The translations under genes and the position numbers were made by a program. A stretch of 64,000 nucleotides of DNA from Boswellia sacra. Taxonomy: Eukaryota > Streptophyta > Magnoliopsida > Sapindales > Burseraceae. Of the stretch, positions 11,581 through 54,347 are shown one piece after another (the stretch's first letter is position 1; the number at the start of each line of letters is the position of its first letter). The stretch covers positions 26,039 to 90,038 of the forward strand of contig SNVD02014114.1 in assembly GCA_013180625.2 (NCBI GenBank), in the 5' to 3' direction. The notes under the pieces are model-generated. The model did not search any database, had not been told where the DNA came from, and saw only the letters and a list, made by a program, of their open reading frames with translations.

Positions 11581-12231
11581 TTACAGATGGAGCGTTAAAT
11601 CCAGTCTACGCCTTTTATTGCCTTCTCCAAACCAATCTATCCGAGCCGTTGTTGGATCAGACGAATAGACGAATTCTTGTAGTTTGTCAATTAACTCCCC
11701 TGCAGTTGAAGCTGTAACCAGGATTTGCCTCGCCGACGGTGAGATGAAATTTTTTTCTACAGCTTGATCAAGAAAAGACAACAAACCATCAAAAAAATTA
11801 TTGACATTTAACAAACCAATGGGTTTCCGATGGATGTTTAGCTGTGCCCAAGAGGTGATTTGAAATATCTCCTCTAATGTACCATAACCACCGGGCAAAG
11901 CTATAAATGCATCGGACTTAACAACCATATGTGCAATACGCTCATGCATGCTAGAAACCTGTAACTCTTCCCCGATTGTGTTGCCTACGATATCTCGTAC
12001 AGCTAATGGTTTAGGGATAATGCCGAGAACTTTGCTCCCTCCTAGGGATGCAGCTGTTGACACACACCCCATTAACCCAAGACTACCCCCTCCATAAATC
12101 AAATGAATACCCCTCGCAGCTAACGTCCTACCAAGATCAAGAGCTGCTGTTGTAAACTCTCAATCTTTACCAAATTGCGATCCACAAAATACGCAAATAT
12201 TTTGGAATCGCCGAATTGGTGTTTTCTCCAT
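11581..12231 (-). pseudogene. LOG-like: retrotransposon-borne LOG cytokinin phosphoribohydrolase, nonsense copy
   Basis: LOG enzymes cleave the ribose 5'-phosphate from cytokinin nucleotides, releasing the active free base in one step. This 217-codon frame, without introns, carries the family landmarks: CVFCGS-like N-terminus, the GGGSLGLMG phosphate-binding loop, and the LOG signature PGGYGTLEE (PGGxGTxxE) with the catalytic Glu. The start is the ATG at 12231-12229, which aligns with the starts of all other copies. Codon 24 (12162-12160) is TGA where the plus-strand family C copy has a Gly codon, so the product would be cut near the N-terminus. The rest of the frame is open. The Lys that usually follows the substrate-binding Arg in plant LOGs is Ile here. 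It lies downstream of the NABP ORF stub and of the hairpin repeats, in the env-like position of Athila elements. Confidence 0.88.
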
Positions 12232-12394
12232 TGCTAAAAGTGCTCTAAACTTGTGTAAGACAATGATGTACGTTAGGTATTATGCGATTCAAGTGCAATA
12301 CAGGTTATAAAATGACATTTCAAAATATGCAGCATGGATATATAACACACGTAAAACTCTCAAATTTGACACATGGGGACATAATTTCGGTGGG

Positions 12395-12625
12395 GGTTGC
12401 TCGATACAGATTTATCCCCCCAAGATTTGAAAAAAATGAGATATGCTTTTGGCGGGGTTTGACAAAACCTACACACTTGTCTTCCACGTGAAGCATGGAA
12501 AATGGAGATACACTTTCGGCGGGGGTTGACAAAACCGCCACACTTGTCTCCCACGTGAAGCATGAAAAGTAGAGATATACTTTCGGTGGAGGTTGACAAA
12601 ACCTCCACACTTGTCTCCCACGTGT
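12395..12625 (-). repeat. tandem 67-bp hairpin repeats between NABP and LOG
   Basis: Three imperfect units, reverse complement of those at 53321-53520. Each contains a G-rich/C-rich inverted repeat around TTTTGTCAA, a CCGAAAG word, and a CACGTG (G-box-like) palindrome followed by GAGACAA or AAGACAA. The units differ from each other mostly in the arms of the inverted repeat. Confidence 0.8.
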
Positions 12626-12849
12626 ACTTATGCCATAGGGTAGTCATATGGTTTGTCAAAAAGAAAACTTGAAATTAAAACAAACAAAATCAACAAACAA
12701 CAACAACACAAAAGCAACATTGATAATCAGATCAAACGAAACAAGAAAAAAAATTCGACAACAACAACACACATTCAAATATACAAGTAGTTGTGATTGT
12801 GGCTCACATCTTCCTCTGGTTTTACGTCCAGTAACGGCTGAAACGCCTT

Positions 12850-12917
12850 CTATGAGTCGGGGATTTGCTTCCCATCCAGTTTTCTTATAAACTGGCAAAC
12901 AGGGTCATTTTTAGTCC
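12850..12917 (-). pseudogene. NABP-like ORF, last codons only
   Basis: Only about 22 terminal codons remain, ending in TAG at 12850-12852 and corresponding to 53012-53079 of the intact copy. The element is truncated here. The sequence after the stop (12780-12849) belongs to a block that is unusually well conserved between families A and C. Confidence 0.75.
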
Positions 12918-13360
12918 GATTTGTGATCCATAAAATTCTATGAAAACTAAACATTCGTATCTTCATGAAGGTATATGCCTCATCATCAGATTCTTTCTAA
13001 ATTAATTTTTGTAATTTTTCAAATTCATGTATCAGTTTTTAAAGCTTTCGGTCGATTTTTTCTTAACTCTCTTCTTTTTTCTTCCAAGGGCATTTTTGTC
13101 ATTTTCTTTATTCATCATTCATCAATGAGGTTCAAAAATCCAATATCTATAGATTGCCCCCACTTTGAAGAAGTTTGTGAGACAAAAAAATCGACAAAGT
13201 ACTCTTACTTCGTCTTTCCTCGTCTCATCTCGGCATCTTTAGCTTCATCTGCATTCTATCAGAGTTCTTCAACATCTACTCTCCTCTTCAATACTTGCCA
13301 AGAAGTATGCCCACTTAAGGGCTGGTGTTCCCACTCAAGGGCTTTTTAGTATTTTCTAAT
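12918..13360. repeat. dispersed repeat D, copy 1, right part
   Basis: Matches 15310-15780 in order: TATCATCAGATTC(T/C)TT, a GTCAGTTTT word, GGGCATTTT, then a CCCCCACTTTGAAGAAGTTTG-like segment paralleling CCCTCTAGTTTGGAGAGGTTTG, and GTACTCT(T/C)ACTT. With 7190-8194 it forms one D copy split by the family C insertion. No protein is recognised. Confidence 0.4.
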
Positions 13361-13656
13361 GCATAAAATGTACTCTTCTAGTGCCAACAAATGCATTCTT
13401 CTAATGCATGTAATGCATCATTATGATGCATGATGTGCATTCTTCTAGTACGAGCAAATGCATGTTTCTAATGCATGAAATGCATCCTTACGATGCATGA
13501 TATGCACTCTTCTAATATGGACAAATGCATTCTTCTAATGTATGGAATTCATCCTTATGATGTATGATGCAAACTCCTCTAGTGTGCACAAATGCATTCT
13601 TCTAATGCATGAAATGTATCCTTATGATATGTGATATGCACTTTTCTCATACAGAC
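13361..13656. repeat. 67-bp ATGCAT-rich tandem array
   Basis: Four units of exactly 67 bp (13389-13656), preceded by a partial one (13361-13388). Each unit begins AAATGCAT, contains several ATGCAT palindromes and ends in an ACTCTTCTAAT-like run. Units differ by a few substitutions. It is a minisatellite inside the repeat D region. Confidence 0.8.
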
Positions 13657-18222: not shown

Positions 18223-19592
18223 TTACACATCTGAAAAAGGATTGTCTCCCAAGTATAGGAGTGTCGAAGTAATAAACCCGGTGAGACCGGGGTCGATCCA
18301 CGAGGAAGGAGATTTTAGCACTACAAATTATATGCTAAGCAAATATGATATAATTGATTCAAAGATATGACGAGATAATATCAACAATAGATAAGAATAA
18401 TTAAAATGCGCAAGTAAAAGGAATTAACACAATAATAATAATGAAAGCTAAGGTTAGGGGATCCGCCCTTGATATTTCGAATAAGGATAATTAACCCATT
18501 TTAGTTATATGAATTATATTTGTTTCATTACCAATATTTATACCACTTCTTGTAAATGGGTTCAAGCATCCAATGTGCCAATCACATATGTCTACAACAA
18601 ATCAAGGTTCCTAACTAGATTCGTGTCGGTAAGGAAGAACCATACATCATCTAGAAAGGATCCAAGCATTTGATGTGCCAAGGATTGTCGACAATGGATC
18701 AAGACCTCCACTTTACGAGTGGTGTCAAGATTGATTAAGAAATTAAATATAAATCATATTGAATAAACATTATAAGATTAAGATTATTAAGCACATATTA
18801 AGGGTTAGAGAATCCTTATTCTCATATCAAGGGTTTCACCCTTTCACCTTAGCAAAAGAGAAATTAGAAGAACATTATAATAGAAAGAAAATAAAATGCA
18901 AGAAAAAGGAAATTCATTAATAACATAAACACACAAAACACAATACAAGATCCTAGCCAAAGCCAAAATGTTCCAGCCAAGGCCAAGATGCCCTAATGGG
19001 TCACAAGGCACCTCTATTTATAGATACATCCAGGGGCAAACTTGTCAAATTACAAGGGCATAATTGTCAAATATTAGTTGTAAATATCTTTGACAATTGG
19101 GATCATTAGGCACCGACTTTGACCATCAATTTTGACATCGAAATGTTGTGAATTTTAATCACACGTCTTCATGAAAGTTGTAGATATTTCTCTCAGCTTT
19201 CTAGAACATATTGATTTGCACAATTTGGATACATATTTTGAGAGATACGGTTCAAATACTGAAGCTTGGTCAGACTGGGCCGAGACTGTAGATGGGTTCA
19301 CTTCAAGCCCAGTTTTGGACCACTAAGAGCCCGAATTTGATGATACTTGTGAAATGCAATCTTGTAGACAATTGAATTAGCTTTCCAAAACATTAAGAAT
19401 TGTACCATTCTGATCTATAAATAGAGAGTTATACCCATTTTACCGAACCTGTAACAAAACCAAAATTAAGAAGAAGTTAATTCCAAAGATGCAAATGCTA
19501 CAAATATGCTTAAGTTGAGGAATTTAATGACACTATTAATGCAATATGATGAACTAAACTCTTATTAAACATGCATATTTAAGTGTTCATCA
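18223..19592 (-). repeat. family A 3' LTR (minus strand)
   Basis: Reverse complement of the family A LTR (AAGTGTTCATCA at the 19592 end equals TGATGAACACTT on the element strand). At 1370 bp it is about 160 bp shorter than other family A LTRs (1529-1532 bp). The block with CCACCTATTTCCATGG text near the end is missing. The outer terminus is mutated (TTACACATCTG where the others give TGACACATCCG). Confidence 0.88.
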
Positions 19593-19602
19593 CACCCCCC
19601 AA
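19593..19602 (-). other. polypurine tract of family A element
   Basis: Element-strand TTGGGGGGTG directly before the 3' LTR, the same as at 38876-38885 and 48489-48498. Confidence 0.8.
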
Positions 19603-19897
19603 CTAGCTTATTGCTAGTCCCTAGCAATTAAAGCGTTATTATTTAGAAGTGATTTATAGAATTTTACATCCAAGGTGGTCATTATTACACTCTCCTTGAT
19701 TTTATCCAAATAAACAAACTCTCAACCAATTATTATTATTATTATTTTTTTTTATGACTCATGTACCCTTCGGTCAAGATATCTATAAACCTTCTTTTTG
19801 TGCTCAGTCAACACATGACTATGGGGCTTATTAGAAAGAAGCCATATCGGTTCTAATATTTGTTAAGGCTAACAACCTTAGGTAAGGGCATTTATTC

Positions 19898-19941
<44 letters not shown>

Positions 19942-21006
19942 GAATAAATTATATTTTTTTTCTCTTCTTCTTTTTTTTTGAAGGAATGCATCTTTAACTC
20001 ATGTAGCGAGCCTTAGGCTAATGACTCCCAGACCAGTTGGCCTTAGGGAATTAGGTGTTAAGACACCCCTTCGAGCTTAACGACTCGGGTTGCCGATGCT
20101 TTATTTTTGCTTAGAAACTTATGGATAGTGCAATGTTCAATCCCATTAAGCTTTCTCCTTAATCCATGTAGCGAGCTTTGGGCCAATAACTCCCAAACCA
20201 GTTGGTCTTAGGGTATTAGGTGTTGAGGCACCCCTCGGGCTTAATTGCTCGAATTAAGGAGGCTACGAGACCAAACTTATCCACAATTGCTCTCTTCTTT
20301 TTTTTTTTTCTTTTTTTTCACTTTTTTTTTCACTTTTTTTCTTCTTCTTTTTTTTCTTTTAACTTTCCCCTTCCTTTGTGTTGTTATTCTAAACAAAATA
20401 AAAGAACTCAAATATTACAACATTTCACTTTGCCACCCACAATCATGCATCAAGGTATGTGTGTGTGTGAAGAAAGGTTCATGAATACTTGCTTAACGAG
20501 TACATAAGCACACAGTTTATTAAATGATAATGTTATGAGAGTTCATAGATTTGAATAATTCAAAGTGAAATGAATAAGTCCTCCTTATTATAAAATTCAA
20601 AAATCAAGACTAAATAATATCAGGTTAGCTAAAATAAGTTCACAAAATCAAAATAAAATGACAAATTGGTTAGAATGGGTTTCAAGAGTTCAAACTGGTC
20701 CTCCCTACTCTGCCATTCCTGACCCAGAATGCATCTCAGGAGGATTTGAACTCCTTACACCGCACTCTGAATCTAATTACTAACTCGTTTTTTTTTTGCA
20801 AGAAAAAAGAAAATTCAAGACACACTTATGTCTACTATCCTTCCCCCCAACCAAAAAAAATATTGTCCTCAATGTTTAAATGCAGAGAGATCAAGTATAG
20901 GAGACATTACGTGAAGCTTCTGTTATTCAAGAGAGATGACCTGAAAGACTCATAAAATAACATGCTAAAAATAAAATAAAATAAAATAAAGGATAAGAGA
21001 AAAAAA
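19603..21006 (-). other. 3' untranslated region of family A element
   Basis: No gene. Contains an (AT)20 microsatellite at 19900-19939, poly-T runs at 20290-20360, the ACATTGAGGACAATGT-type dyad (about 20862-20876), an internal purine run next to it (20839-20850), and the conserved TCTTGAGACGCATTCTGG-like motif with flanking inverted repeat around 20680-20770. Collinear with 37550-38875. Confidence 0.75.
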
Positions 21007-21657
21007 TTACAAACGGAGATTCAAATGCAATTTGCACCTTTTGTTTTGCCCTCCTGCCCAATTAATTTGAGTACTAGCTGGGTCAGGTTCATACTTAACT
21101 TCTTGTAATTTGTCAAGTAACTCACCAACAGAAGTGGCAGAAACAAGGATCTTTCTCACTGAATGAGGTATAAAATTTTGTTCCACAGCTGCATCAACAA
21201 AACTTATCAAAGGATCAAAGAAATTTTTGACATTCAACAAACCTATGAGTTTTTTATGGAGATTCAGTTGGGCCCAAGAGGTAATTTGAAAAATTTCTTC
21301 AAGAGTGCCAAAGCCACCTGGTAAAGCAATAAAGGCATCTGAATTGATGAGCATATGTGCCATGCGTTCATCCATAGAGGAGACCTGTAACTCCTTCCCA
21401 ACCGTTTTTCCAACAATACTTTCTACAGCCAAAGCTTTAGGAATAACTCCTAAAACCTGAGTACCTCCTACATATGCAGCTGTTGACACACAACCCATTA
21501 ACCCGAGGCTACCTCCCCCATAAACCACATGAATCTTTCTTTCAGCCAGTAGCCTAACAAGATAATTCGCTACTTTTACGAACTCTTCACTTTTACCTGG
21601 TCGAGATCCACAGAATACACATATCCTTTGGATTCGACGTTTTGAAGTTCCCTCCAT
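21007..21657 (-). CDS. LOG-like: retrotransposon-borne LOG cytokinin phosphoribohydrolase, intact
   Basis: Full 216-aa open frame without introns, close to the usual length of plant LOG proteins. Domain order: RICVFCGSRPG near residue 10-20, GGGSLGLMGC around 46-56 (nucleotide-phosphate loop), a VIPKAL strand, the DERM segment with the substrate-binding Arg, PGGFGTLEE around 114-122 with the catalytic Glu, and a WAQLNLHKKLIGLLN core that follows the family. Known role: hydrolyses cytokinin riboside 5'-monophosphate to free cytokinin base plus ribose 5-phosphate in the cytosol. The usual Lys after the Arg is Met, and His before ER is Asp in this copy only. ATG at 21657 is supported by alignment with three other copies. 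A TATTTAT word (TATA-like on the element strand) sits about 50 bp upstream. It is about 92% identical to the 36899 copy by hand alignment (17 residue differences). Confidence 0.92.
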   Translation of the reverse strand: MEGTSKRRIQRICVFCGSRPGKSEEFVKVANYLVRLLAERKIHVVYGGGSLGLMGCVSTAAYVGGTQVLGVIPKALAVESIVGKTVGKELQVSSMDERMAHMLINSDAFIALPGGFGTLEEIFQITSWAQLNLHKKLIGLLNVKNFFDPLISFVDAAVEQNFIPHSVRKILVSATSVGELLDKLQEVKYEPDPASTQINWAGGQNKRCKLHLNLRL

Positions 21658-21706
21658 GTCTAAGTAACTCTCTAACTATGTGTGAAGAAGAGAACAAGAT
21701 ATGTGG

Positions 21707-21713
21707 TATTTAT
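21707..21713 (-). promoter_or_regulatory. possible TATA box of an internal LOG promoter
   Basis: Element-strand ATAAATA within CACTCCATAAATACC, about 50 nt upstream of the LOG ATG. The same sequence lies at 36844-36850 before the other intact LOG. The spacing would give a 5' leader of some 20-25 nt. This is inference only; the LTR promoter could serve instead. Confidence 0.35.
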
Positions 21714-21972
21714 GGAGTGCAAAAAGTTATGCTAGTGATGATATCTATCTAGGTAACTCGATTGTTTATTGAAAAAGTTGACAATAATGCATAAAAATTC
21801 AAAAGATGATGAAATAAGACACCATAAGTCAAACAAAAGATACAAATTAAAAAATGACAGCTATGAGGTATTAAAATTCAAAAATGATGGCACGCATGCA
21901 TATGTACATGTATTTGTGACTGTGGCTCACATCTTCCTCTGGTTTTACGTCCAGAAACGGCTTAAACACCTT

Positions 21973-22519
21973 CTATGAGTTGGGATATGCTTCCCATCCA
22001 GTTTTCTTATAAACTGGCAAACAGGGTCGTTTTGAGTCAGATTCCCAAGACTATAGCGTTCCTGCTCATCTCGGAATTGTGTCCACAAATTAAAATTTCA
22101 CGCTGCACAAGTCCACAAGACTGCGTCTCAAGAGTCACTCGGATATCATCCAAAGACTCCCTACTCAGTCCATTCTTGATGAACTGTAACTTATCCTCTC
22201 GATTATTAGACAAATATCCCAAGGAGCGGCAACGTTGGTTACAAGTCCATCTTGCACATTTGGGACAAACTTGTAACCTTTTCGCTCTTCGCTTTTTGGC
22301 GTAAGAGCTTTTTCCCATACCTGGCATGTGAGAAACAAGATTATCTGAAAATTCATAAGCAAATCGAACCTTGGCTTCAATTAACCATCTTACTTCAACA
22401 GCCATACCCTTACACATCAACATCCTTAGTCTTTCTGCACGAGCTTTGTAAATTTTGAGCAAATCATTTGGAGGAAGAGAGGGAAAATGGTTGTGCAGAT
22501 TTGAGAGAATGGTGTCCAT
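21973..22519 (-). pseudogene. NABP-like basic four-Cys finger protein, family A, two 1-nt deletions near the C-terminus
   Basis: Open for 160 codons from the ATG at 22519, then out of frame. Features: a Leu/Phe-rich helical N-terminus, a VRWLIEAKVRF segment, then KSSYAKKRRAKRL (strongly basic) leading directly into C-x2-C-x4-C-x3-C (VCPKCARWTCNQRC), and a NREDKLQFIKNGLS segment. The basic patch plus Cys finger is the arrangement of the cysteine-rich nucleic-acid-binding proteins of carlaviruses and relatives (Pfam Viral_NABP), which suppress RNA silencing or act in the nucleus. The assignment is by pattern, not by search. Relative to the family C copy, one nucleotide is missing near 22092 and another near 21983, so the last 20 or so residues are altered. 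It lies between integrase and LOG on the same strand. Confidence 0.6.
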
Positions 22520-22579
22520 GCGAGAAAAGAAAGGAAAATGAATGCAAGGTGAGCAACAGTTTTTAGGGAACTGAGAAAC

Positions 22580-22625
22580 CGACTTTAAAAGTCACAGAGT
22601 ACCGTATCCGCCACGTGACCGGGAA
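22580..22625 (-). promoter_or_regulatory. structured leader upstream of NABP-like ORF
   Basis: Element-strand GGTCACGTGGCGGATACGG and following bases contain ACGG-x4-CCGT and GACTTTTAAAGTC, two perfect inverted repeats back to back. The same leader occurs at 30301-30348, 35922-35965, 45200-45245 and 46881-46922. Confidence 0.5.
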
Positions 22626-22634
22626 AATCAATCC

Positions 22635-23718
22635 TTAAAAAGGATCAATTAAAGCAATGGACTCTTCGTTTTGGTCAAAATTTTCAAAGAATGATTTTAA
22701 CCGTTGTCCATTAACTTTAAACACATTACCATTCTTTGGGTTCCCAATTTCAACGGCTCCATGAGGGAAAACATTTTTAACAATGAAAGGCCCAGTCCAA
22801 CGAGACCGAAGTTTACCAGGAAACAAATGCAATCTTGAATCATACAAAAGAACTTTTTGGGAAGGTTCAAAATATTTTCTAACAATGGATTTGTCATGAA
22901 AAACCTTCATTTTTTCTTTGTATATTTTAGAATTTTCATAAGCCTCATTCCTGATTTCTTCAAGTTCACTCAGTTGGAGTTTACGTAACTTGCAAGCATC
23001 ATTCAAGTTTGTGTTAAATGTTTTAATGGCCTAATAAGCTTTATGCTCAATTTTCACAGGCAAGTGACAAGTTTTTTCATAAACTAATCTATAAGGAGAC
23101 ATTCCTAATGATGTTTTGAAAGCAGTTCGGTAAGCCCAAAGTGCATCATTAAGTCTTAAAGACTAATGTTTACGATTTGGGTTAACCGTTTTTTCTAATA
23201 TCTGTTTTATCTCCCTATTAGCTAATTCAACTTGTCCACTTATTTGTGGTGATAAGGTGTAGAAATTTTATGGGTTATTCCATATTTCTTCATTAAAGTT
23301 TCAAATGGTTTGTTGCAAAAATGTGTACCCCCATCACTAATAATGGCTCGAGGAATTCCAAATCTACTCAAGATATTCTCCTTCAAGAATTTGACAACTG
23401 TTTTGTGATCATTGTTTCGACATGGAATTGCCTCGACCCATTTTGAAATATAGTCTACTGCAACAAGGATGTACACAAAACCAAATGACGGTGGAAAGGG
23501 TCCCATAAAATCAATACCCCAACAGTCAAAGATTTCAACGACAAGAATGGGATTCAACGGCATCATGTTTCTTTTTGAAATAGATCCCAATTTTTGACAA
23601 TTTTCGCACGTTTTGCAAAATGCATGTGCATCTTTAAATAAGGTGGGCTAATAAAATCCACATTGTAAGATCTTAGCAGCTGTTTTTCTAGATGAAAAAT
23701 GTCCTCCACATGCTTGAA
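22635..23718 (-). pseudogene. Ty3/gypsy integrase (Athila-like), N-terminally truncated, with stops
   Basis: Catalytic core recognised from the [13 protein letters not shown] segment (first Asp), the ISDGGTHF segment (second Asp), and LANREIKQ (Glu), followed by the C-terminal [18 protein letters not shown] segment (GPY/F module) and the ALIDPF end. The protein inserts retrotransposon cDNA into the genome. Stops and frameshifts interrupt it near 23238, 23163 and 23030. The zinc-binding HHCC region ends at the inversion breakpoint (about 23718), where the match to the family is lost. Confidence 0.85.
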
Positions 23719-23734
23719 GGGGACAACCGTTCGC

Positions 23735-25215: not shown

Positions 25216-25219
25216 CACA

Positions 25220-28124: not shown

Positions 28125-28130
28125 AGTTTT

Positions 28131-28148
28131 TGGCGCCGTTGCCGGGGA
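28131..28148 (+). other. primer-binding site (tRNA-Asp)
   Basis: TGGCGCCGTTGCCGGGGA follows the 5' LTR after six bases. It is complementary to the 3' end of plant tRNA-Asp(GUC), the primer typically used by Athila elements. Confidence 0.88.
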
Positions 28149-36850: not shown

Positions 36851-36898
36851 CCAATCTCTTGTTCTCTTCTTCACACATAGTTAGAGAGTTGCATAGAC

Positions 36899-38875: not shown

Positions 38876-38885
38876 TTGGGGGGTG
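38876..38885 (+). other. polypurine tract
   Basis: TTGGGGGGTG directly before the 3' LTR. Confidence 0.8.
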
Positions 38886-43251: not shown

Positions 43252-44533
43252 TGATGAACACTTAAATATGTATGTTTAATAAGAGCTTAGTTCATCATAT
43301 TGCATTAATAGTGTCATTAAATTCCTCAACTTAAGCATATTTGTAGTCTTTGCATCTTTGGAATTAATTTTCTCTTAATTTTGGTTTTGTTATAGGTTCG
43401 GTAAAATGGGCATAACTCTCTATTTATAGATCAGAATGGTGCAATTCTTAATGTTTTGGAAAGCTGATTCAATTGTCTACAAGATTGCATTTCACAAGCA
43501 TCATCAAATTCGGGCTCTTAGTGGACCAAAATTGGGCTTGAAGTGAACCCATCTACAGTCTCGGCCCAATCTGACCAGGCCTCAGTATTTGGACCGTATC
43601 TCTCAAAATACGTATCCAAATTGTGCAAATCAATATGTTCTAGAAAGCTGAGAGAAATATCTACAACTTTCATGAAGATATGTGATTAAAATTCTCAACA
43701 TTTCAATGTCAAAATTGATGGTCAAAGTCGGTGCCTAATGATCCCAATTGTCAAAGATATTTACAACTAATATTTGACAATTATGCCCTTGTAATTTGAC
43801 AAGTTTGCCCCTGGATGTATCTATAAATAGAGGTGCCTTGTGACCCATTAGGGCATCTTGGCCTTGGCTGGAACATTTTGGCTTTGGCTAGGATCTTGTA
43901 TTGTGTTTTGTGTGTTTATGTTATTAATGAATTTCCTTTTTCTTGCATTTTATTTTCTTTCTATTATAATGTTCTTCTAATTTCTCTTTTGCTAAGGTGA
44001 AAGGGTGAAACCCTTGATATGAGAATAAGGATTCTCTAACCCTTAATATGTGCTTAATAATCTTAATCTTATAATGTTTATTCAATATGATTTATATTTA
44101 ATTTCTTAATCAATCTTGACACCACTCGTAAAGTGGAGGTCTTGATCCATTGTCGACAATCCTTGGCACATCAAATGCTTGGATCCTTTCTAGATGATGT
44201 ATGGTTCTTCCTTACCGACACGAATCTAGTTAGGAACCTTGATTTGTTGTAGACATATGATGATTGGCACATTGGATGCTTGAACCCATTTACAAGAAGT
44301 GGTATAAATATTGGTAATGAAACAAATATAATTCATATAACTAAAATGGGTTAATTATCCTTATTTGAAATATCAAGGGCGGATCCCCTAACCTTAGCCT
44401 TCATTGTTATTGTGTTAATTCCTCTTGTATTTTAATTATTCTATTGTTTATGAACTTTTTATTTTATTTACTATGGTAGGTTCTACCACCTTATGAAATT
44501 GTTCTTTAATTTACTATGGTTGGTTATACCACC
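43252..44533 (+). repeat. family A 5' LTR, 3' end truncated
   Basis: Matches family A LTRs from TGATGAACAC to GTTATACCACCT (44533), then departs. About 245 bp of the LTR end is missing. Confidence 0.9.
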
Positions 44534-44555
44534 TTAGGGTATTTTATTTAATTTA

Positions 44556-45064
44556 CATGTTCTTAACCCTTATGAGAAATATAATGAATCAATCCCAAAG
44601 GGTAAGGAAGAGGTTAATAAATCTATACCTAACAAGGAAAAGACCAAATCCTCATTTATGCCCTCATGTCATCATGCAAAGGAACTTAACCAACATTTTG
44701 ACATCAATGAATTTTTTGAGCATGATGAAAATGAGAAAGCTAATAGGACTAAAACTAATGTGGAAGACTATATCCAAATGAGAATTTTTCAAAAATCAGG
44801 TTAACCAATTCATTTGAACCAAGTGTACAATTAGAACTAATTGCTTTTAAAGAATTTTTACTTGATTTTGTACAGGTGAAGGAGTCATGTTTTGAAAAAA
44901 GGCAGGAAGAAACATCCACAATCAAGAATGCGTGCCTCAAGGACAAACAAACTCAATCAGTGGTAATCTCTTCCATTCTCACAAATAAAGGAAAAAGAGA
45001 GGTACCACCTCAATGGCACATTTTTGACCGTGGTAAATTACTTTCGAAGAGATTCCTCTTTTGA
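44556..45064 (+). pseudogene. Gag-linker tail, duplicated fragment
   Basis: Matches 46220-46740: Glu/Lys-rich Gag tail, then the acidic linker and the NKGKREVPPQWHIFDRGK segment. Small deletions (for example near 44780 and 44900) shift the frame. It is an extra, out-of-place copy of the end of Gag. Confidence 0.7.
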
Positions 45065-45198
45065 CCTTTTTTCACGATTAACCAAATTTTATCCATTTGT
45101 GCCATATTTTCATTTTTATTCTTGATTTTTGCTATCATTTCTAGTTTGTTCTTATTTTATTTTATGTGCTTTTATTTTATTTCTGTGTTTGCATTTTG

Positions 45199-45327
45199 TT
45201 TCCCGGTCAAGTGGTGGATACGGTACTCCGTGAATTTTAAAGTCGGTTTTTTAGTTCTTTAAAAACTGTTGATCACCTTGCATCCATTTTCTTTTCTTCT
45301 CTCTTATTTTCTTCATAGTCTTGGGCA
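45199..45327 (+). promoter_or_regulatory. NABP leader, misplaced copy joined to gag
   Basis: TTCCCGGTCAAGTGGTGGATA, the hairpin words and the NABP deletion junction CTTCATAGTCTTGGG. This joins directly to Gag coding sequence (CAAATCATCAATTTCACTC) at 45327/45328. Confidence 0.55.
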
Positions 45328-46770
45328 AATCATCAATTTCACTCAAAAACAAGGAGAGACCTTTTACCAATGTTGGGATAGGTATAAAGCATTGCTTAAT
45401 ACTTGTCCTCATCATGGTTTTGAAACATGGGAACTAGTTTTAATTTTCTATGAAGCTCTAACACATCAAGCTAGGCAAATGATAGAATTATTGTGTGATG
45501 GACAATTTGAAGATAAATACCCAGATGAAGCCATGGATTTCCTAGACTTACTAGCGAAAAATGCCCAAAATTGGAATAATGTTGACACCTATGAGGTGCC
45601 AAGAACATCTAGTAGAGGCATTTATAACTTTAGGGAGAATCATGATCTTCATGCTAAATTTACATCCCTAGCTAGAAAAGTCGAGGATTTAGAAATGTGG
45701 TCTATGCAAGAAATTGTTTGTCACACTTGTAATTCTAGTGATCATCCAACGAATGATTGTCCAAAGGTGCCTACCTTTAGAAAAAGTCTCCATGACCAAA
45801 CCAATGTTTTAAACACTTTCCAAAGGTCAAATCCTAATCCTTACTCACAAAATTTTGGATGGAAAAATCACTTGAATTTTGATTGGAGGAATGATAATCA
45901 TGCACAATCTTACCAACCTCCCTTTCAATCATGTCAAAAATTTCAAAAATCTTATGATCATGCATCTTATGAGGATCTTGAAGAAACATTGAATTCATTC
46001 ATTGCAAAGCAAGAGGCTTTTAATAGTCAAACTGCTCAAACTATGGCGAACTTGAACGATACTCTTGAAAAGCTTGCATTTGCACTTAGTCCTCATGAGA
46101 AAGGTGAGTTTCCATCTCAACTAGAGACAAACTCCATCAATCCACATGTGAGTAATCCAAGGGGCCAACATCTAGACGAAGATTCGGTAAGTACTCTTCA
46201 CGATGGTAAGGTTTATAAGGAACATATTCTTAACCCTTATGAGAAAGATGATGAATCAATCTCAAGGGGTAAGGAAGAGATTAATAAACCTACACCTAAC
46301 AAGGAAGATATCGAATCCTCACTTATGCCCTCATGTCATCATGTAAAGGAACACAACCAAAATTTTGACAATAATGAATTTTTCAAGCATGATGAATGTG
46401 AGGAAGCTAATAAGATTAACGTGGAAGACTATATCCAAAATGAGAATTTGTCAAGTCCTTCAGAAATTGGGTTAACTAGTTCATTTGAAGCAAATATGCA
46501 ACTAGTGCCCATTGCTTCTAAAGAATTTTCATTGCTTGATTTTGTACAGGTGAAAGAGATTAAGAGTTGGGAGCCACGCTTTGAAAAAAGGCAGGAAGAA
46601 ACATCCACACTCAAGAATGCATGCCTCAAGGACAGACAAACTCAATTAGTGGTAATCTTTTCCATTCTTACAAATAAAGGAAAAAGAAAGGTACCACCTC
46701 AATGGCATATTTTTGATCGTGGTAAATTACTTTCGAAGATATTTCTATTTTGCCCTTTTAATCAAATTTT
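45328..46770 (+). CDS. Gag-linker polyprotein of gag-only family A element, N-truncated but open
   Basis: Part of an open frame of 549 codons that also reads through leader-derived codons at its start. The Gag part contains CWDRYKALLNTCPHHGFETW, an intact zinc knuckle CHTCNSSDHPTNDC (C-x2-C-x4-H-x4-C) and a Gln/Asn-rich stretch. It continues without a stop through the acidic linker to VPPQWHIFDRGKLLSK. Protease and RT are absent by deletion, not by a stop. The first 120 or so residues of Gag are missing because of the rearrangement at 45327, and the true initiator is not present. Such Gag could package its own RNA but would need enzymes from a relative. Confidence 0.7.
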
Positions 46771-46877
46771 ATTCGTTTGTGCCATATTTTCATTTTCATT
46801 TTTATTTTTATTCTTGATTTTTGCTATCATTTCTAGTTTGTTTTTATTTTATATGTTAGTGTGTGTTTGTCTTTTAT

Positions 46878-47075
46878 TTTTCGGTCAAGTGGTAGATATG
46901 GTACTCCATAGCTTTTAAAGTCGGTTTTTCAGTTTCATAAAAACTGTTGCTCACCTTGCATTCATTTTCTTTTCTTTTCCCTCATTTTCTTCATAGTCTT
47001 GGGAATCTGACTCAAAATGACCCTATTTGACAGTTTATAAGAAAATTGGATGGGAAGCATATCCCCAACTCATAG
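46878..47075 (+). pseudogene. NABP leader plus deleted NABP ORF remnant
   Basis: Structured leader (46881-46922), then the same deletion junction as at 30411 and the C-terminal block ending in TAG (47073-47075). Confidence 0.65.
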
Positions 47076-48488
47076 AAGGTGTTTAAGCTGTTTCTAGACG
47101 TAAAACCAGAGGAAGATGTGAGCCACAGTCACAACTACCTATACACATGCATGTGTGCCATCAATTTTAAATTTCTTGTCTTTTATTTTATTTGTAGCAT
47201 TTTATTCTATAAGTCCAGGTCGTCTTTCCTGAATAAAGAAGCTTCAGGTAATGTCTCCTATACTTTATCTCTCTACATTTAAACATTGAGGACAATGTTT
47301 CATTTGGTTGGGGGGGAAGGATAGTAGACATAAGTATGTCTTTAATTTTCTTTTGCTTGCAAAAAAAAAAAGCGAGTTAGTAATTAGATTTAGAGTGCGG
47401 TGTAAGGAGTTCAAATCCTCTTGAGACGCATTCTGGGTCAGGAATGGCAGAGTATGGAGGGCCAATTTGAACTCTTGAAACCCATTCTAACCAATTTGTC
47501 ATTTTATTTTGATCTTATGAACTCATTTTAGCTAACTTGATATTATTTAGTCTTGATTTTTGAATTTTATAACAAGGAGGTCTTATTCATTTCACTTTGA
47601 ATTATTCAAATCTATGAACTCTCACAACCTTATCATTTAAAAATTGTGTGCTTATGTACTCATTAAGCAAGTATTCATGAACCTTTCTTCACACACACAC
47701 ACATACCTTGATGCATGATTGTGGATGGCAAAATGAAATGTTGTAATATTGAGTTCTTTTGTTTTGTTTAGGATAACAACACAAAGGAAGGGGAAAGTTA
47801 AAAAAAAAAGTCAAAAAAAAAGTAAAAAAAAAGAAGAAGAGAGCAATTGTGGATAAGTTTGGTCTCGTAGCCTCCTTAATTCGAGCAATTAAGCCTGAGG
47901 GGTACCTCAACACCTAATACCCTAAGACCAACTGGTTTGGGAGCTATTGGCCCAAAGCTCGCTACATGGATTAAGGAGAAAGCTTAATGGGATTGAACAT
48001 TGCACTATCCACAAGTTTCTAAGCAAAAATAAAGCATCGGCAACCCGAGTCGTTAAGCTCGAAGGGGTGTCTTAACACCTAATGCCCTAAGGCCAACTGG
48101 TCTGGGAGTCATTAGCCTAAGGCTCGCTACATGGGTTAAAGATGCATTCCTTAAAAAAAAAAAAGAAAAAAAATATATATATAATGAATAAATGCCCCTT
48201 ACCTAAAGTTGTTAGCCTTAACAAATATTAGAACCGATATGTCTTCTTTCTAATAAGCCCCATAGTCATGTGTTGATTGAGCACAAAAAGGAGGTTTACT
48301 GATATCTTGACTGAAGGGTACATGAGTCATAAAAAAAATAATAAAAAAATAATAATAATAATTGGTTGAGAGTTTGTTTATTTGGATAAAATCAAGGAGA
48401 GTGCAATAATGACCACCTTGGATGTAAAATTCTATAAATCACTTCTAAATAATAACGCTTTAATTGCTAGGGACTAGCAATAAGCTAG
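47076..48488 (+). other. 3' untranslated region, LOG deleted
   Basis: As at 30495-31890: conserved post-NABP block, no LOG, ACATTGAGGACAATGT dyad (47282-47299), purine run, TTGAGACGCATTCTGG motif (47421-47437). Confidence 0.7.
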
Positions 48489-48498
48489 TTGGGGGGTG
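48489..48498 (+). other. polypurine tract
   Basis: TTGGGGGGTG, followed by the first eight bases of the 3' LTR (TGATGAAT). Confidence 0.8.
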
Positions 48499-48506
48499 TG
48501 ATGAAT
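48499..48506 (+). repeat. first 8 bp of split family A 3' LTR
   Basis: TGATGAAT. The remainder lies at 57733-59253, beyond the family C element and its duplicated TGAAC. TGAAT (48502-48506) and TGAAC (57728-57732) are the target-site duplication with one later substitution. Confidence 0.88.
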
Positions 48507-49914
48507 TGATAGGTGTCTATTTATGTATTACTTTTATATCAATTCGTCCATGTTTCTTTGCTATATTCCTTGGTATTTTTATGTTTTTGTGTGGTTTTGA
48601 TGTTTGTAGGAGTTTTGGAGCAACTTGCACAAAAATGGAGTAAAACCCTTCATTTTCACCTCTGCTAGTCAGTGATCTTCTCGGATTTAATTGTATTGAT
48701 ATACAATGAACCCGATGACATGTTATATACCGTTGGAAAGCTCTCGAAGTCTATTTTCTGGAGAAATTTACGGTTTATAAATCCATTCAGTGTACCAAAA
48801 GTTGTAATCAAAACAGTGTGAGAAGTATAGAAATATAATTCCACAAATCACTGTAGCATGTATAATACGGGACACTGTAGCAGGTCACTGTAGCAGAGTA
48901 TTTAAACACATTTTAGGGTTTTATTTTCATAACTTGAAGAGGGGAGAACGTGGTGGAGGCTTCAGCTCTGGAATTCTTTCATCTCTTGGAGTTCTTGAAG
49001 GAGAAAGGAAGCTTGGAAAGAGGAAGAACTACAATCCAAAGAGAATTACATCAAATTTGCTAAGTTTTTCCCTTCCCTTTCATTTTCTGGAATGTCTCCA
49101 TGTTGTATTGTATTTACCACGTTCTTAAACATGTGTAACTGAATCTGAATTGGTTGAGGGTGATTTCAAAGCCCCTGATATGGTTTTTGTAAGTTGATTG
49201 TGCAAGAAGTTGTTATCCAATTCTCTAATTGAAGTTGCTTGTATTTTCCCATATTTAATGCTTATGATTGCTTGCTGATTGTATTTGGGTGGCCAACTGA
49301 ATATAATCTGGTTGTTGTCTATTGCTAGACTAGAAATCTTGATCCGTAATTGTCTTGAATTTCTAATCCTTAGTAGCAAAATTGTGATCAGAGATTGCAA
49401 TTGGAGAATACAACCTAAGTTAAATAATCCGAGCTTGTGTGTTTATTGCTTAGATCAACCTATCTTTCTTATCATAATGCATCCATTGAATTAAATTTAG
49501 AGAGCTTGTTCTAAGTTGTTTAATGGATAGAGATTAAATAAAGAGCCTGTTTTATTTAACAACAAAGTAAGGAAAGATTGGGATAACAGAGCTTGTTGTT
49601 ATCTACGGTTGATAATTTCAATGCTGTAATTGGATGACAATTCTACGATTAATTCGCAAATCCATATCTTGTGGTAGAGAAGGATCCCTTAACCAGCTTT
49701 CTCTCATTGATTTTTCATTCGAATTAACTTTCTGTTTTGTTATTCTTCCTTTGCATTATTATTTCACTTAGTTAATCAATCAACAAAACCCCCCATTTAC
49801 TCTATTTTGCTTTCGAATAACAAATTTAATTAGAATCAATCCTCGTGGGAACGATATCTACTTATCACTTTATTACTTGTGCGACTAGTATACTTGCTAG
49901 TTTCGAACGCATCA
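48507..49914 (+). repeat. family C 5' LTR
   Basis: TGATAGGTGTC start, GCATCA end, followed after six bases by the PBS. 1408 bp. Contains CTGTAGCA words repeated at about 48850-48900. Confidence 0.92.
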
Positions 49915-49920
49915 AGTTTT

Positions 49921-49938
49921 TGGCGCCGTTACCGGGGA
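49921..49938 (+). other. primer-binding site (tRNA-Asp, one mismatch)
   Basis: TGGCGCCGTTACCGGGGA; one base differs from the family A site (TGGCGCCGTTGCCGGGGA). Confidence 0.82.
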
Positions 49939-49991
49939 TTGATTTTCTAATCGATTTGTTATTTTGTTTTCATTGTTGATTCATATTTTCT

Positions 49992-52049
49992 TTGTTTTTC
50001 TTTTCTGATTGTTTGTGTTTAGACAACATGGCAGTAAACTTCTATCAATTCAGTAGCGGATTTGAGCCACAAGTACCATGGAGAGTAAATGAGGTGAGCA
50101 CTCCGAACATTGAACAACAACTTTATAAGCTAACCTCTCTTGTGGAAAACATGGTTGTAGGAGATATGCAAAAATCTTATGAATGTGGGGTATATTCTAC
50201 GATGGAGCATCCAATCGACATATATCCAACTTTACAAGAAGAATATATGGAACAAGCCAATACCATGGGTGGATTTCCAGGACAAACAAGGCAATGGTAT
50301 GATCCTTTCTCTAACACTTACAATGCTGGATGGGAAGATCACCATAATTTCAGTTACTGGAATCATCAACCAATCACTCAAAATGTGATACCAAATCGGC
50401 CACAAGGTTTCAATCAACCTAGAGTGCAGCAACCACTTCAAATGCAACCACCACCAATGCCACATCCAGCACCGCAACCAGCTTCACAAAACTCAGGTAT
50501 GTCTCTCCAGGATATTGTTAATGCACTTGCCACTAACACAATGCAATTCCAGCAGGAAACTGGGGCAAGTATCCAAAACCTCGCAAATCAAATGGGACAA
50601 TTGGCTACTAGCATGAGCAAATTCGAGGGCCAAGGCTCAAAAGAATTATCTTGTCAAACGGTCATCAATCCAAGAGAGAATTATTGTGCGATAACTTTGC
50701 AAAATGAAGAGCAAGTAGATGTCCTACCAAAGAAATCACAAACTGATGAAGGAGATGACACCACTTCCATCATGAACAAAACACTGACTTCTCAGGTAAA
50801 TCTTATAACTCCCATTCCTTCATATGTTTCTCCTCCACTTTTTCCTTATAGATTTGCAAAATCGAAGAAGGAGGAACAAGAACAAGAAATCCTGGAAACT
50901 TCTCACAAAATCGAGGTAAATATACCACTTCTGGATGCTATCGAGCAAGTACCTCATTATACAAAATGTCTCAAGGAGTTATGCACCAGCAAAAGAAAGT
51001 TAAAAAGAAATGAGAAAGTAAGTGTGGGGGAAGATGTTTCAGCTGTATTGCAAAGGAAAATTCCTCCAAAGTACAAAGATCCAGGTACGTTCACCATGCC
51101 ATGCACCATTGGTAAAACCAAGTTTGAAAGAGTTATGTTAGATTTAGAAGCATCTATTAACATCATGCCATATTCTATTTATGCTTCTTTAAATCTTGGA
51201 CCTTTTACGGAAATTGGTATTACCATTCAAATTACTGATCGTTTTAATGCTTATACCAAAAGAGTTGTGGAAGATGTGCTTGTGCAGGTGAATCAATTGA
51301 TTTTCCCAGCAGACTGTTATGTTCTTGAAATAGAGGATGAGACATCTCCTAATCCAACACTGATTCTTATAGAGAGACCATTCTCGAAAACTGCTAGAAC
51401 CAAGATTGATGTTCATGATGACACTCTCACCATAGTGTTTGATGGCAAGGTGATCCGTTTCAATATTTTTGAGGCAATGAGGTGCCCTAGTGACTTATAT
51501 TCTGTTTTTGTAGTTGACGTTCCTGATTCTCTGCCACAACAATGTTTTGAGTTAACTTGCAAAAATGGATTGGATGTAGCTATTAGTGAGCACATAGGGA
51601 CAGAAAATTCTAAGGAATCAAGAATTTTGATACAAGTGTCTAAAGAAGTGAAGGAAGCTCTGGCAAGCTTAGATGAGACTATAGCCATAACCATAAGCAG
51701 GTATGATGTTTCGTATTTTGAATTGTCTTTATCTAATGAGAAACTTTTTCATTCTGTGATGAAGGCCAATACCGTGGAGCTTAAGTCACTTCCAGATCAT
51801 TTGAATCATGGATTCTTGGGCGAGAATGGTACTTTGCCAATTATAATAGAAATGGGCCTTGCACCAGTACAAGAAGTGAAACTCGTCCAAGTACTTAGAG
51901 ATCACAAAACGACTATTAGGTGGACAAGTGCTCACATCCAAGGCCCAGCCATATGCGTGCACCATTTCTTGTGGAAAGAAGGGTCCAAGCCCACTAGAGA
52001 AGCACAGCAGAGATTGGACCCTGCCATGATGGAACCAACGTCGGGCTGA
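49992..52049 (+). CDS. Gag-protease-derived ORF of family C, capsid part missing
   Basis: 685 codons, open. The usual Gag capsid region of some 300 residues is absent; the frame begins (MAVNFYQF at the ATG in 50029-50031, or upstream Met) just before the zinc-knuckle region. That knuckle is broken: Cys-x2-Tyr-x4-His-x4-Tyr, two of three Cys replaced by Tyr. A Gln/Pro-rich stretch follows, then the protease region with VNIPLLDAIEQVPHYTKCLK and an active-site loop reading LDLEASINIMPYS. Gly of the DLGAS motif is Glu here, which should inactivate it. It ends after the GLAPVQEVKLVQVLRDHK start of RT. The open length suggests low age or a retained structural role. Confidence 0.8.
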   Translation: MFFFSDCLCLDNMAVNFYQFSSGFEPQVPWRVNEVSTPNIEQQLYKLTSLVENMVVGDMQKSYECGVYSTMEHPIDIYPTLQEEYMEQANTMGGFPGQTRQWYDPFSNTYNAGWEDHHNFSYWNHQPITQNVIPNRPQGFNQPRVQQPLQMQPPPMPHPAPQPASQNSGMSLQDIVNALATNTMQFQQETGASIQNLANQMGQLATSMSKFEGQGSKELSCQTVINPRENYCAITLQNEEQVDVLPKKSQTDEGDDTTSIMNKTLTSQVNLITPIPSYVSPPLFPYRFAKSKKEEQEQEILETSHKIEVNIPLLDAIEQVPHYTKCLKELCTSKRKLKRNEKVSVGEDVSAVLQRKIPPKYKDPGTFTMPCTIGKTKFERVMLDLEASINIMPYSIYASLNLGPFTEIGITIQITDRFNAYTKRVVEDVLVQVNQLIFPADCYVLEIEDETSPNPTLILIERPFSKTARTKIDVHDDTLTIVFDGKVIRFNIFEAMRCPSDLYSVFVVDVPDSLPQQCFELTCKNGLDVAISEHIGTENSKESRILIQVSKEVKEALASLDETIAITISRYDVSYFELSLSNEKLFHSVMKANTVELKSLPDHLNHGFLGENGTLPIIIEMGLAPVQEVKLVQVLRDHKTTIRWTSAHIQGPAICVHHFLWKEGSKPTREAQQRLDPAMMEPTSG

Positions 52050-52227
52050 GGATGTTAAACCAAGCGCTTATTGGGAGGCAACCCAATGTTTTTGAAAAAT
52101 AAATAAAAAGAAAAGAAAAGAAAAATAAAATAAGGTAATAATGATCAATTTTGTGTCTCGAGGAGATTCCATTCGTAGGCCATCAAATTGACCAGGTTTT
52201 ATCTCTCCTTGCCATCTGTCTTATTCG

Positions 52228-52275
<48 letters not shown>

Positions 52276-52400
52276 CTTGTTCTTTACTTTTGTTTGCTAT
52301 TCTGTTGTTACTCTTTTATATGTCTTTAGTTTCGTTTCTACTCTTTTCTTTTCATTTCTTTTGTTTAATTTGATTATTCGTACTTTGTGTTCATTTGTGC
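52050..52400 (+). other. junction region replacing RT to integrase
   Basis: AGCGCTTATTGGGAGGCAAC (52059-52078), a motif common just after the coding region of Athila-type elements, is followed by A-rich DNA, a (TA)n run (52233-52265) and T-rich DNA. No gene. Confidence 0.6.
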
Positions 52401-52406
52401 AACAGC

Positions 52407-52500
52407 TTGAGGAAACACCGAAACAAGAATTGAAGCCATTGCTTGAAGGTTTGAAGTGTGCATATCTTGGAGAAGAACAGACTCAATCTCATTATCGGTA
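52407..52500 (+). pseudogene. second fragment of the pre-RT linker
   Basis: Encodes KQELKPLLEGLKCAYLGEEQ, matching ELKPLPEGLKYAYLGEN at the start of RT in the 25851 copy. It sits directly upstream of the NABP ORF, so the pol deletion was followed by a joining of pre-RT sequence to the NABP leader. Confidence 0.65.
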
Positions 52501-52524
52501 ATATCTCCCCTTTTCTTCTCTTCA

Positions 52525-53079
52525 ATGGATGCCGATATCATTTTGTCGAACTTTCGTAAATATTTTCCTTCACTTCCTCAAAATGCTGTGTTTAAAATTT
52601 ATAAAGTACGGATGACTAGACTTTGGGCATTGATGCTCCTAAATGTGCTTGCTGATATCCGATGGCTTATCGAAGCCAAGGTGAGATTGTCCGGTGAGCC
52701 GGACATTAATCTCGCAAAATACATGCCTGGTCTAGCAAAAAGCTACTACGCCAAGAGGCGAAGAGCGAAAAGGTTACAAGTATGTTATAAATGTGCTAGA
52801 TGGAATTGTAACCAGACTTGTCGTTCATTAGGTTTTGCGTCCAGGAATAGAGAAGATAAACTTTCATTTATTAAGAATGGTTTGAGTAATAAGTCGCTGG
52901 ATAATGTTTTATTAACTCTCGAGTCACATTCTTGTGGACTTGTTCAGCGTGAATTGCTTAATCTATGGACACAATTTCGTGATGAATTGCAGTGTTATAG
53001 TCTAGGGACTCTGACTAAAAACGACCCTGTTTGCCAGTTTATAAGAAAACTGGATGGGAAGCAAATCCCCGCCTCATAG
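52525..53079 (+). CDS. NABP-like basic four-Cys finger protein, intact (family C)
   Basis: 184 codons, the only undamaged copy in the window. N-terminal 75 residues: helical, with ILSNFRKYFPSLPQNAVFKI and ADIRWLIEAKVRL. Residues about 75-105: SYYAKRRRAKRLQVCYKC leading into ARWNCNQTC, i.e. a basic run followed by C-x2-C-x4-C-x3-C. C-terminal part: NREDKLSFIKNGLS, a CGLVQRELLNLW helix, and a DPVCQFIRKLDGK tail. The basic run plus Cys finger plus FIKNGLS order is the layout I associate with the cysteine-rich nucleic-acid-binding proteins of carlaviruses and relatives; the N-terminal extension is longer. Likely an RNA/DNA-binding, possibly silencing-suppressing or nuclear protein (inference). 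The ATG at 52525 is preferred because it matches the family A start. LOG follows 618 bp downstream. Confidence 0.65.
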   Translation: MDADIILSNFRKYFPSLPQNAVFKIYKVRMTRLWALMLLNVLADIRWLIEAKVRLSGEPDINLAKYMPGLAKSYYAKRRRAKRLQVCYKCARWNCNQTCRSLGFASRNREDKLSFIKNGLSNKSLDNVLLTLESHSCGLVQRELLNLWTQFRDELQCYSLGTLTKNDPVCQFIRKLDGKQIPAS

Positions 53080-53140
53080 AAGGCGTTTCAGCCGTTACTG
53101 GACGTAAAACCAGAGGAAGATGTGAGCCACAATCACAACT
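53010..53140 (+). other. block hyperconserved between families, spanning the NABP stop
   Basis: About 120 bp differing at roughly 8 positions from family A copies, while surrounding coding sequence differs at about a quarter to a third of positions. Contains CCAGTTT-x6-AAACTGG and CTGG-ACGTAAAA-CCAG inverted repeats on either side of the TAG. Also found at 12780-12917 (-), 21915-22030 (-), 30430-30555, 36515-36640 and 47010-47135. Confidence 0.6.
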
Positions 53141-53320
53141 ACTTGTATATTTGAATGTGTGTTGTTGTGTCGAATTTTATTTCTTTCTTGTTTCGTTTGA
53201 TCTGATTATCAATGTTGTTTTTGTGTTGTTGCTGTTTGTTGATTTTGTTTGTTTTAATTTCAAGTTTTCTTTTTGACAAACCATATGACTACCCCATGTC
53301 GTAGGCACACGTGGAGATGA

Positions 53321-53520
53321 GTGTGGAGGTTTTGTCAACCTCCACCGAAAGTGTATCTCTATTTTTTATGCTTCACGTGGGAGACAAGTGTGGGGGTTTT
53401 GTCAACCCCCGCCGAAAGTGTATCTCCATTTTCCATGCTTCACGTGGGAGACAATTGTGTAGGTTTTGTCAAACCTCGCCGAAAGCATATCTCATTTTTT
53501 CAAATCTTGGGGCGATAAAT
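53321..53520 (+). repeat. tandem 67-bp hairpin repeats between NABP and LOG
   Basis: Units 53321-53387, 53388-53454 and a diverging third from 53455. Each holds an inverted repeat: GGAGGTT-TTGTC-AACCTCC, GGGGGTT-TTGTC-AACCCCC and AGGTTT-TGTC-AAACCT. Arm changes are matched on the other side. Each of the first two ends with CACGTGGGAGACAA. Confidence 0.85.
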
Positions 53521-53697
53521 CTGCATCGAGCAACTCCCACCGAAATTATGTCCCCAGGTGTCAAATTTGAGAGTTTTACGTGTGTATATATCCATGCTGC
53601 ATATTTTGAAATGTCATTTTATAACCTGTCTTGCACTTGAATCGCATAATACCTAACGTACATCATTGTCTTACACAAGTTTAGAGCACTTGTAGAA

Positions 53698-54347
53698 ATG
53701 GAGAAAACCCCAATTCGGCGATTCCGCAATATATGCGTATTTTGCGGATCGCAATTTGGTAAAGATGGAGAGTTTACCACAACAGCTCTTGATCTTGGTA
53801 GGACATTAGCTGCGAGGGGTATTAATTTGATTTATGGAGGGGTAGTCTTGGGTTAATGGGATGTGTGTCAACAGCTGCATCCCTAGGAGGGAGCAAAGTT
53901 CTCGGCATTATCCCTAAACCATTAGCTGTACTAGATATCGTAGGCAACACAATCGGGGAAGAGTTACAGGTCTCTAGTATGCATGAGCGTATTGCACATA
54001 TGGTTGTTAAGTCCGATGCATTTATAGCTTTGCCGGGTGGTTATGGTACATTAGAGGATATATTTCAAATCACCTCTTGGGCACAGCTAAACATCCATCG
54101 GAAACCCATTGGTTTGTTAAATGTTAATAATTTTTTTGATGGTTTGTTGTCCTTTCTTGATCAGGCTGTAGAAAAAAATTTCATCTCACCGTCAGCAAGG
54201 CAAATGCTGGTTACAGCTTCAACTGCAGGAGAGTTAATTGACAAACTACAAGACTTCGTCTATTCACCTGATCCAACAATGGCTCGGATAAATTGGTTTG
54301 GAGAAGGCAACAAAAGGCGTCAACTGGATTTAACCCTCCATCTGTAA
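53698..54347 (+). pseudogene. LOG-like: retrotransposon-borne LOG, single-base frameshift (family C)
   Basis: Intronless LOG of the same layout: ICVFCGSQFGK, GGGSLGLMG-type loop, SSMHERI (Arg kept, Lys replaced by Ile), PGGYGTLEDIF with the last acidic residue Asp-adjacent variant (E-D), and WAQLNIHRKPIGLLN. One G is missing from the G run at 53839-53842 relative to the 11581 copy, which shifts the frame at the phosphate-binding loop. The remaining 163 codons (53856-54347) are open. It is about two-thirds identical to the family A LOGs. ATG 53698 aligns with all other starts. The family C copies carry different single lesions, so their common ancestor was intact. Confidence 0.88.

Follow-up and report, generated by a model that had tools for sequence, protein, structure and literature searches.

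A LOG-family gene carried by nested Athila-like retrotransposons of Boswellia sacra, with replacements at two conserved pocket residues

Captured cellular genes are considered rare in plant retrotransposons and are mostly of unknown use. Athila-like elements with LOGL4-like open reading frames (ORFs) are reportedly described in the abstract of Steinbauerova et al. 2011. The closest described systems are gypsy-type long terminal repeat (LTR) retrotransposons with an extra domain of the LOG family: PMC9289625 reports a YgdH (LOG family) domain in the Gypsy consensus sequences of two citrus species, Citrus sinensis and C. clementina, and, when no filter was applied, also in those of Populus trichocarpa, and cites Steinbauerova et al. 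2011 as in line with this finding. The same paper describes Ty3/gypsy elements of orchids that carry an m6A RNA demethylase domain, likewise a cellular enzyme domain captured as an extra gene, but involving another enzyme and another host group (PMC9289625). Here, we analyzed a 64,000-nt stretch of Boswellia sacra (GCA_013180625.2, contig SNVD02014114.1, positions 26,039-90,038 of the forward strand; hereafter the window), a nest of LTR retrotransposons in which four elements from two LTR families each carry a LOG gene. The first-pass annotation was aware of no retrotransposon with such cargo, but the Citrus and Populus elements show that it has been described (PMC9289625).

LOG cargo is thus already known in kind. 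What is new in the window is an altered active-site pocket under selection, a neighboring gene for a carlavirus-type nucleic-acid-binding protein (NABP), a sign that the two genes were exchanged as a module, and derivatives that have lost LOG. Compared by description, the relevant section of PMC9289625 mentions neither a NABP neighbor nor selection, altered active-site residues, exchange of a module, or derivatives without LOG. Term searches for “YgdH” and “cytokinin” returned nothing in review PMC7264820 and survey PMC6317226, and literature searches, judged by titles and abstract starts, listed no other paper on LOG in retrotransposons, this pocket change or NABP in retrotransposons, which is weak evidence of absence given that subscription journals lay mostly outside their scope. 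In the window, the captured gene bears signs of selection while part of an element, has a virus-type gene as its traveling companion, and has lost pocket residues retained by the standard LOGs examined, so that it becomes directly testable whether such additional ORFs benefit the elements.

Four LOG genes in an env-like position

Six elements could be told apart in the window, i.e., A1 to A4 in LTR family A (TGATGAACAC...GTGTCA) and C1 and C2 in family C (TGATAGGTG...GCATCA). The LOG genes of C2, A4, A1, and C1 are referred to as L1, L2, L3, and L4, respectively. All four matched PF03641 (E 1.4e-35 to 2.6e-39) and scored above the TIGR00730 cut-off, profile scores that exclude chance matches. 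From ATG to stop, three of the genes measure 651 bp and the fourth 650, and all are intronless, while the Arabidopsis genes AtLOG3 and AtLOG8 have introns. L3 (36899-37549, plus strand; PF03641 2.4e-38, TIGR00730 3.6e-50) and L2 (21007-21657, minus strand) are intact and encode 216 amino acids. L1 (11581-12231, minus strand) carries one in-frame stop at codon 24, and L4 (53698-54347, plus strand) one early single-base deletion after which it is open from 53856; the ORFs at 11581-12102 and 53856-54347 are their open parts only. The initial description of four intronless, same-length genes therefore stands, except that only two are intact.

Every LOG lies on the strand of its element, with integrase (INT) and/or NABP sequence upstream (for C2, the NABP tail only) and an LTR downstream. 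This confirms the placement first proposed for both LTR families. NABP and LOG together occupy an env-like position, and their order is identical in families A and C.

An AlphaFold model of L3, built from a 40-row LOG alignment, reached a predicted local distance difference test score (pLDDT) of 85, with AtLOG3 (At2g37210, 2a33) and AtLOG8 (At5g11950, 1ydh) as best matches in the PDB and 50% and 48% sequence identity to them, respectively; a single-sequence fold was poor (pLDDT 41) and was not used. The element LOG is thus predicted, from L3 only, to keep the LOG fold, and it shares the catalytic motif with both Arabidopsis proteins. The NCBIfam equivalog CtkRMPhLog, from a library built for bacteria and archaea, gave scores of 80-112 against a cut-off of 300. 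In PHROGs, LOG gave only a DprA-like match, taken for a remote Rossmann relative, and NABP gave none. PADLOC defence models yielded no match for L2 and L3, and among viral contigs none of three pattern matches for LOG or two for NABP was confirmed as a relative. Ahead of the ATG, the leader is partly conserved in all four copies, and in A1 a CATAAATA box (36843-36850) precedes the start of LOG by ~50 bp, with another at the same site in A4; box and leader might act as a private promoter for LOG.

Pocket residues and selection on LOG

Active-site residues are numbered here after CgLOG, and Gly132 after L3. For CgLOG, Arg99 and Glu122 have been proposed as catalytic residues and Met96, His97, Lys100, Glu125, and Trp129 as the prenyl site, the latter identical in AtLOG3, OsLOG, and CpLOG; the adenine site consists of Met96, Lys100, and Glu121 (PMC4979012). 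Our reference set comprised 82 LOG sequences, i.e., AtLOG3, AtLOG8, and 80 bacterial sequences, the best of at least 581 relatives (at least 593 stretches) from a genome scan. Residue 100 is Lys in all 82 references, whereas L1 to L4 carry Ile, Met, Met, and Ile; residue 125 is Glu in 82/82 references and Gln in all four element copies. Of the two search patterns that defined the bacterial set, one leaves residue 100 free and the other permits Lys or Met there, and Lys occupied this position in 27/27 bacterial relatives carrying the former; residue 125 lies outside both. The remainder of the site is largely kept: the PGGxGTxxE phosphate loop, the catalytic Arg99, Met96, and Trp129 in 4/4 copies, both catalytic residues in L1, L2, and L3 (L4 has Asp at the Glu122 equivalent), and His97 in three (L2 has Asp). 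The element copies also have a common replacement at Gly132. An Ala-to-Ser change at position 58 was dropped as an element-specific substitution, since AtLOG3 and AtLOG8 have the same.

Published mutagenesis results suggest what these replacements may mean. In CgLOG, changing AMP-site residues to Ala almost completely abolished activity, except at Ser19 (PMC4979012), and in CgLOGII, Ala at Arg155, Lys156, Thr175, or Glu178 left no activity on adenosine monophosphate (AMP; PMC5379747). As CgLOGII Lys156 follows the catalytic Arg, we took it as the equivalent of Lys100. Because Lys100 and Glu125 are replaced in 4/4 copies and the equivalent Lys-to-Ala change is dead in CgLOGII, cytokinin release by the element LOGs is doubtful, and a changed nucleotide substrate is our favored, unproven reading. 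We consider the chances about even that the element LOG binds or cleaves a purine-nucleotide-like ligand rather than isopentenyladenine riboside monophosphate (iPRMP) in the standard way.

The alternative of an ordinary cytokinin-activating enzyme, in which local isopentenyladenine or trans-zeatin would favor dividing and germ-lineage cells where transposition is inherited, can draw on the LOG fold predicted for L3, the PGGxGTxxE loop, the catalytic Arg in 4/4 copies and catalytic Glu in 3/4, and the purifying selection described below. It is nonetheless hard to square with the replacement in every copy of two residues invariant across the references, with the complete inactivity of CgLOGII Lys156Ala (PMC5379747), with the additional absence of His97 from L2, and with the spread of LOG-less derivatives. 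Overall, we regard it as rather unlikely, and the initial suggestion that the element makes a growth hormone is weakened by the same pocket replacements.

Next to the altered pocket, signs of constraint were found in both families. The ratio of non-synonymous to synonymous substitution rates (dN/dS) of LOG was 0.24 (0.12-0.48) for A1/A4, 0.18 (0.07-0.43) for C1/C2 over 163 codons, and 0.13-0.18 between families. The non-synonymous share fell below that of simulated neutral evolution (4000 runs per pair, observed transition bias, stops disallowed), with P 0.004 for A1/A4 and 0.0008 for C1/C2, these tests resting on 36 and 22 substitutions, respectively. Between A1 and A4, LOG had 0 indels in 651 sites vs 46 in 4523 sites of the other parts (INT 19, NABP 6, spacer 6, 3′ region 11, LTR 4; conditional P 0.002). 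We did not rely on the A1/A4 NABP dN/dS of 0.65, whose alignment crosses a frameshift, or on a value of 0.60 over 58 codons of RNase H/INT, which is short and has wide bounds. On the simplest reading of these sequences, LOG would have been constrained while an element gene in both families. Its description as an accessory gene in env-like position is supported.

Origin of the NABP-LOG module and LOG-less derivatives

In a tree of 86 rows (four from elements, two from Arabidopsis, and 80 from bacteria), a single clade on a long stem unites the element LOGs (Shimodaira-Hasegawa-like approximate likelihood ratio test, SH-aLRT, 99) and lies next to AtLOG3+AtLOG8 (94), and plant and element sequences together form a clade at 99. 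The tree is consistent with a single capture, which it does not prove because the host's own LOG genes are not among its rows. Separate host LOG retrocopies inserted locally into unrelated elements would also be intronless; this explanation was rejected on the common position and NABP neighbor in both families and the shared replacements at Lys100, Glu125, and Gly132, and with the single clade added we find it scarcely credible.

Next to LOG, NABP ORFs lie in A4 and C1. The A4 ORF (22037-22519, minus strand) encodes a Cys-rich, carlavirus-type protein of 160 amino acids matching PF01623 (2.1e-6) and PF05515 (1.5e-5), both above cut-offs, and the C1 ORF (52456-53079, plus strand; 207 amino acids as called) matches PF05515 (2.2e-8) above its cut-off and PF01623 just below. 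Similarity of the C1 protein to that of A4 starts near residue 20, at ~52513 (tblastn), and tblastn with both proteins located a frameshifted remnant in A1 (36035-36578, plus strand). Unlike the carlavirus proteins they resemble, these lie inside an LTR retrotransposon, and a PDB search with the A4 protein found no match at E up to 1. Viral proteins of the carlavirus NABP type often suppress silencing, a function from which a retrotransposon would profit. As a tentative extension, possible though we would not wager on it, the element lineage may have made a captured hormone enzyme a nucleotide-handling accessory protein, without its prenyl-adenine pocket residues but with fold, catalysis, and selection retained, that was passed between families and, with NABP, forms a portable two-gene 3′ module, perhaps directed against host silencing or nucleotide-based defence signals. 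In C1 (53308-53500) and C2 (12432-12624), the stretch from NABP to LOG contains a 67-bp tandem repeat (2.9 copies); no array of this type was listed in A1 or A4.

Between families, the synonymous divergence (dS) was 1.2-1.3 for NABP and 1.3-1.6 for LOG, and gag-protease identity was 37-44%, its dS being saturated (finite values in 120 and 134 of 200 bootstraps). Close before the C1 NABP lies a chimeric junction with a family A-like fragment of the region preceding reverse transcriptase (RT; 52406-52498, plus strand), in which 20/25 residues are identical to A1 26083-26157 and 9/19 to the pre-RT of C1 itself. From this junction and the much lower gag-protease identity, we infer that elements with divergent gag regions traded NABP and LOG as a module, probably when templates recombined during reverse transcription. 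The original proposal of one capture before the A/C split thus keeps its single clade, while its timing becomes one possibility only, as the A-like fragment and low gag-protease identity point to later exchange.

A2 and A3 lack LOG. Both have the same two internal deletion junctions (read by eye in one alignment), which remove most of NABP, plus LOG with part of its spacer, and the LOG-less form has spread, with copies at two sites. LOG is therefore not needed in cis. The simplest reading is that A2 and A3 lost LOG rather than being ancestrally without it, because LOG is found at the same place in A1, A4, and both C elements.

Taken together, we lean slightly towards an account of one capture, module sharing, selection, and an altered pocket and ligand. 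A spliced plant LOG transcript would have entered an Athila-type Ty3/gypsy element once, as one clade and the absence of introns suggest, and become an accessory gene downstream of integrase, with a carlavirus-type NABP gene as its neighbor. The pair would later have been shared by families with very different gag-protease regions, probably through template switching, and LOG, by then a gene of the elements, would have been preserved by purifying selection on its protein, as supported for the window's two families. Since deletion derivatives without LOG still spread, the protein would work in trans or be dispensable.

Several observations weigh against this account. The absence of LOG indels would be unsurprising at the LTR indel rate (P 0.11), C1/C2 LOG divergence (4.9%) is like that of the flanks (4.0-5.3%), and two of the four LOG copies are broken. 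With gag-protease dS saturated, the main evidence for module exchange is a single fragment of 25 residues. The Lys/Glu pair may have been lost before capture, or elements may twice have taken up the same unusual host gene, and the plant comparison comprises two LOG sequences only. The altered substrate rests on one dead Ala mutant of a distant type II LOG in an AMP assay, and Ala at three prenyl-site residues of CgLOGII left activity (PMC5379747). Moreover, wheat LOGs whose conserved pocket residues are the same yielded different products (PMC11593424), so pocket residues predict activity poorly.

The broken copies, the small substitution counts, and the dispensability of LOG in cis (A2, A3) would also fit a passenger gene, caught by chance and without benefit, whose seeming constraint would stem from low counts, a recent common ancestor, or gene conversion. 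Against such a passenger stand dN/dS values <1 in both within-family pairs and also between families at dS >1, and the A1/A4 contrast of 0 indels in LOG with 19 in INT and 6 in NABP. We judge it improbable and retain selection on an element gene as the preferred reading.

Architecture of the nested elements

The elements display the features of Ty3/gypsy retrotransposons, i.e., LTRs, target-site duplications, and gag (PF03732) followed by the RT-RNase H-INT order (RVT_1 and rve), with RNase H present as a weak partial match below its cut-off. A primer site, TGGCGCCGTT(G/A)CCGGGG, follows the 5′ LTR in A2 (28131-28147) and C1 (49921-49937), and we take it to be of the tRNA-Asp type used by Athila elements; Pfam ATHILA families matched none of the four gag ORFs scanned.

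A1 (23775-40418, plus strand) comprises gag, protease, RT, RNase H, INT, NABP, LOG, and a 3′ LTR; self-comparison of the window did not find its 5′ LTR. A2 breaks it into a 5′ part with gag, protease, and the start of RT (23775-26595) and a 3′ part with RT, RNase H, INT, NABP, LOG, and the 3′ region (33538-38885; RVT_1 1.6e-22, Integrase_H2C2 and RNase H weak and below their own cut-offs), followed by the family A 3′ LTR (38886-40418), all on the plus strand. A2 itself (26596-33537, plus strand) consists of two LTRs and gag, without most of NABP and without LOG, had no RT or RNase H match, and is flanked by a perfect target-site duplication (CCTTC, 5/5; 26591-26595 and 33538-33542). Its 3′ LTR is interrupted by a 113-bp near-pure T tract (32102-32214). 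The remaining A element on this strand, A3 (43252-59254), is split by C1 into a left part with 5′ LTR, gag, and NABP tail but without LOG (43252-48505) and a 3′ LTR (57728-59254).

A4 (18225-23737, minus strand) retains a 3′ LTR with an internal deletion, the 3′ region, LOG, NABP, and an INT piece (rve 3e-18 at 23249-23647), its 5′ part being missing. Inspection by eye revealed no clear disabling lesion common to the INT of A1 and A4, and we do not claim transposition with a dead pol. Divergence between A1 and A4 is 1.9% in the LTRs (38886-40075 vs 18394-19592) but 5.5-11.7% internally, and family A LTRs therefore seem to have been homogenised or recombined among members.

C1 (48507-57727, plus strand) has inserted where the A3 3′ LTR begins, with a target-site duplication matching at 4/5 positions (TGAAT/TGAAC). 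It comprises two LTRs differing by 3.8%, the primer site, a gag-protease ORF (49992-52049), NABP, and LOG, and gave no RT, RNase H, or INT match. C2 (8203-12919, minus strand), 94.7% identical to C1 across 4731 columns, retains the 3′ LTR (8203-9602), 3′ region, LOG, and NABP tail and lacks its 5′ part. Beyond the nest, minus-strand remnants of a MuDR-type (Mutator-like element, MULE) transposase with SWIM and DBD_Tnp_Mut domains lie at 60122-60592 and 61356-61979.

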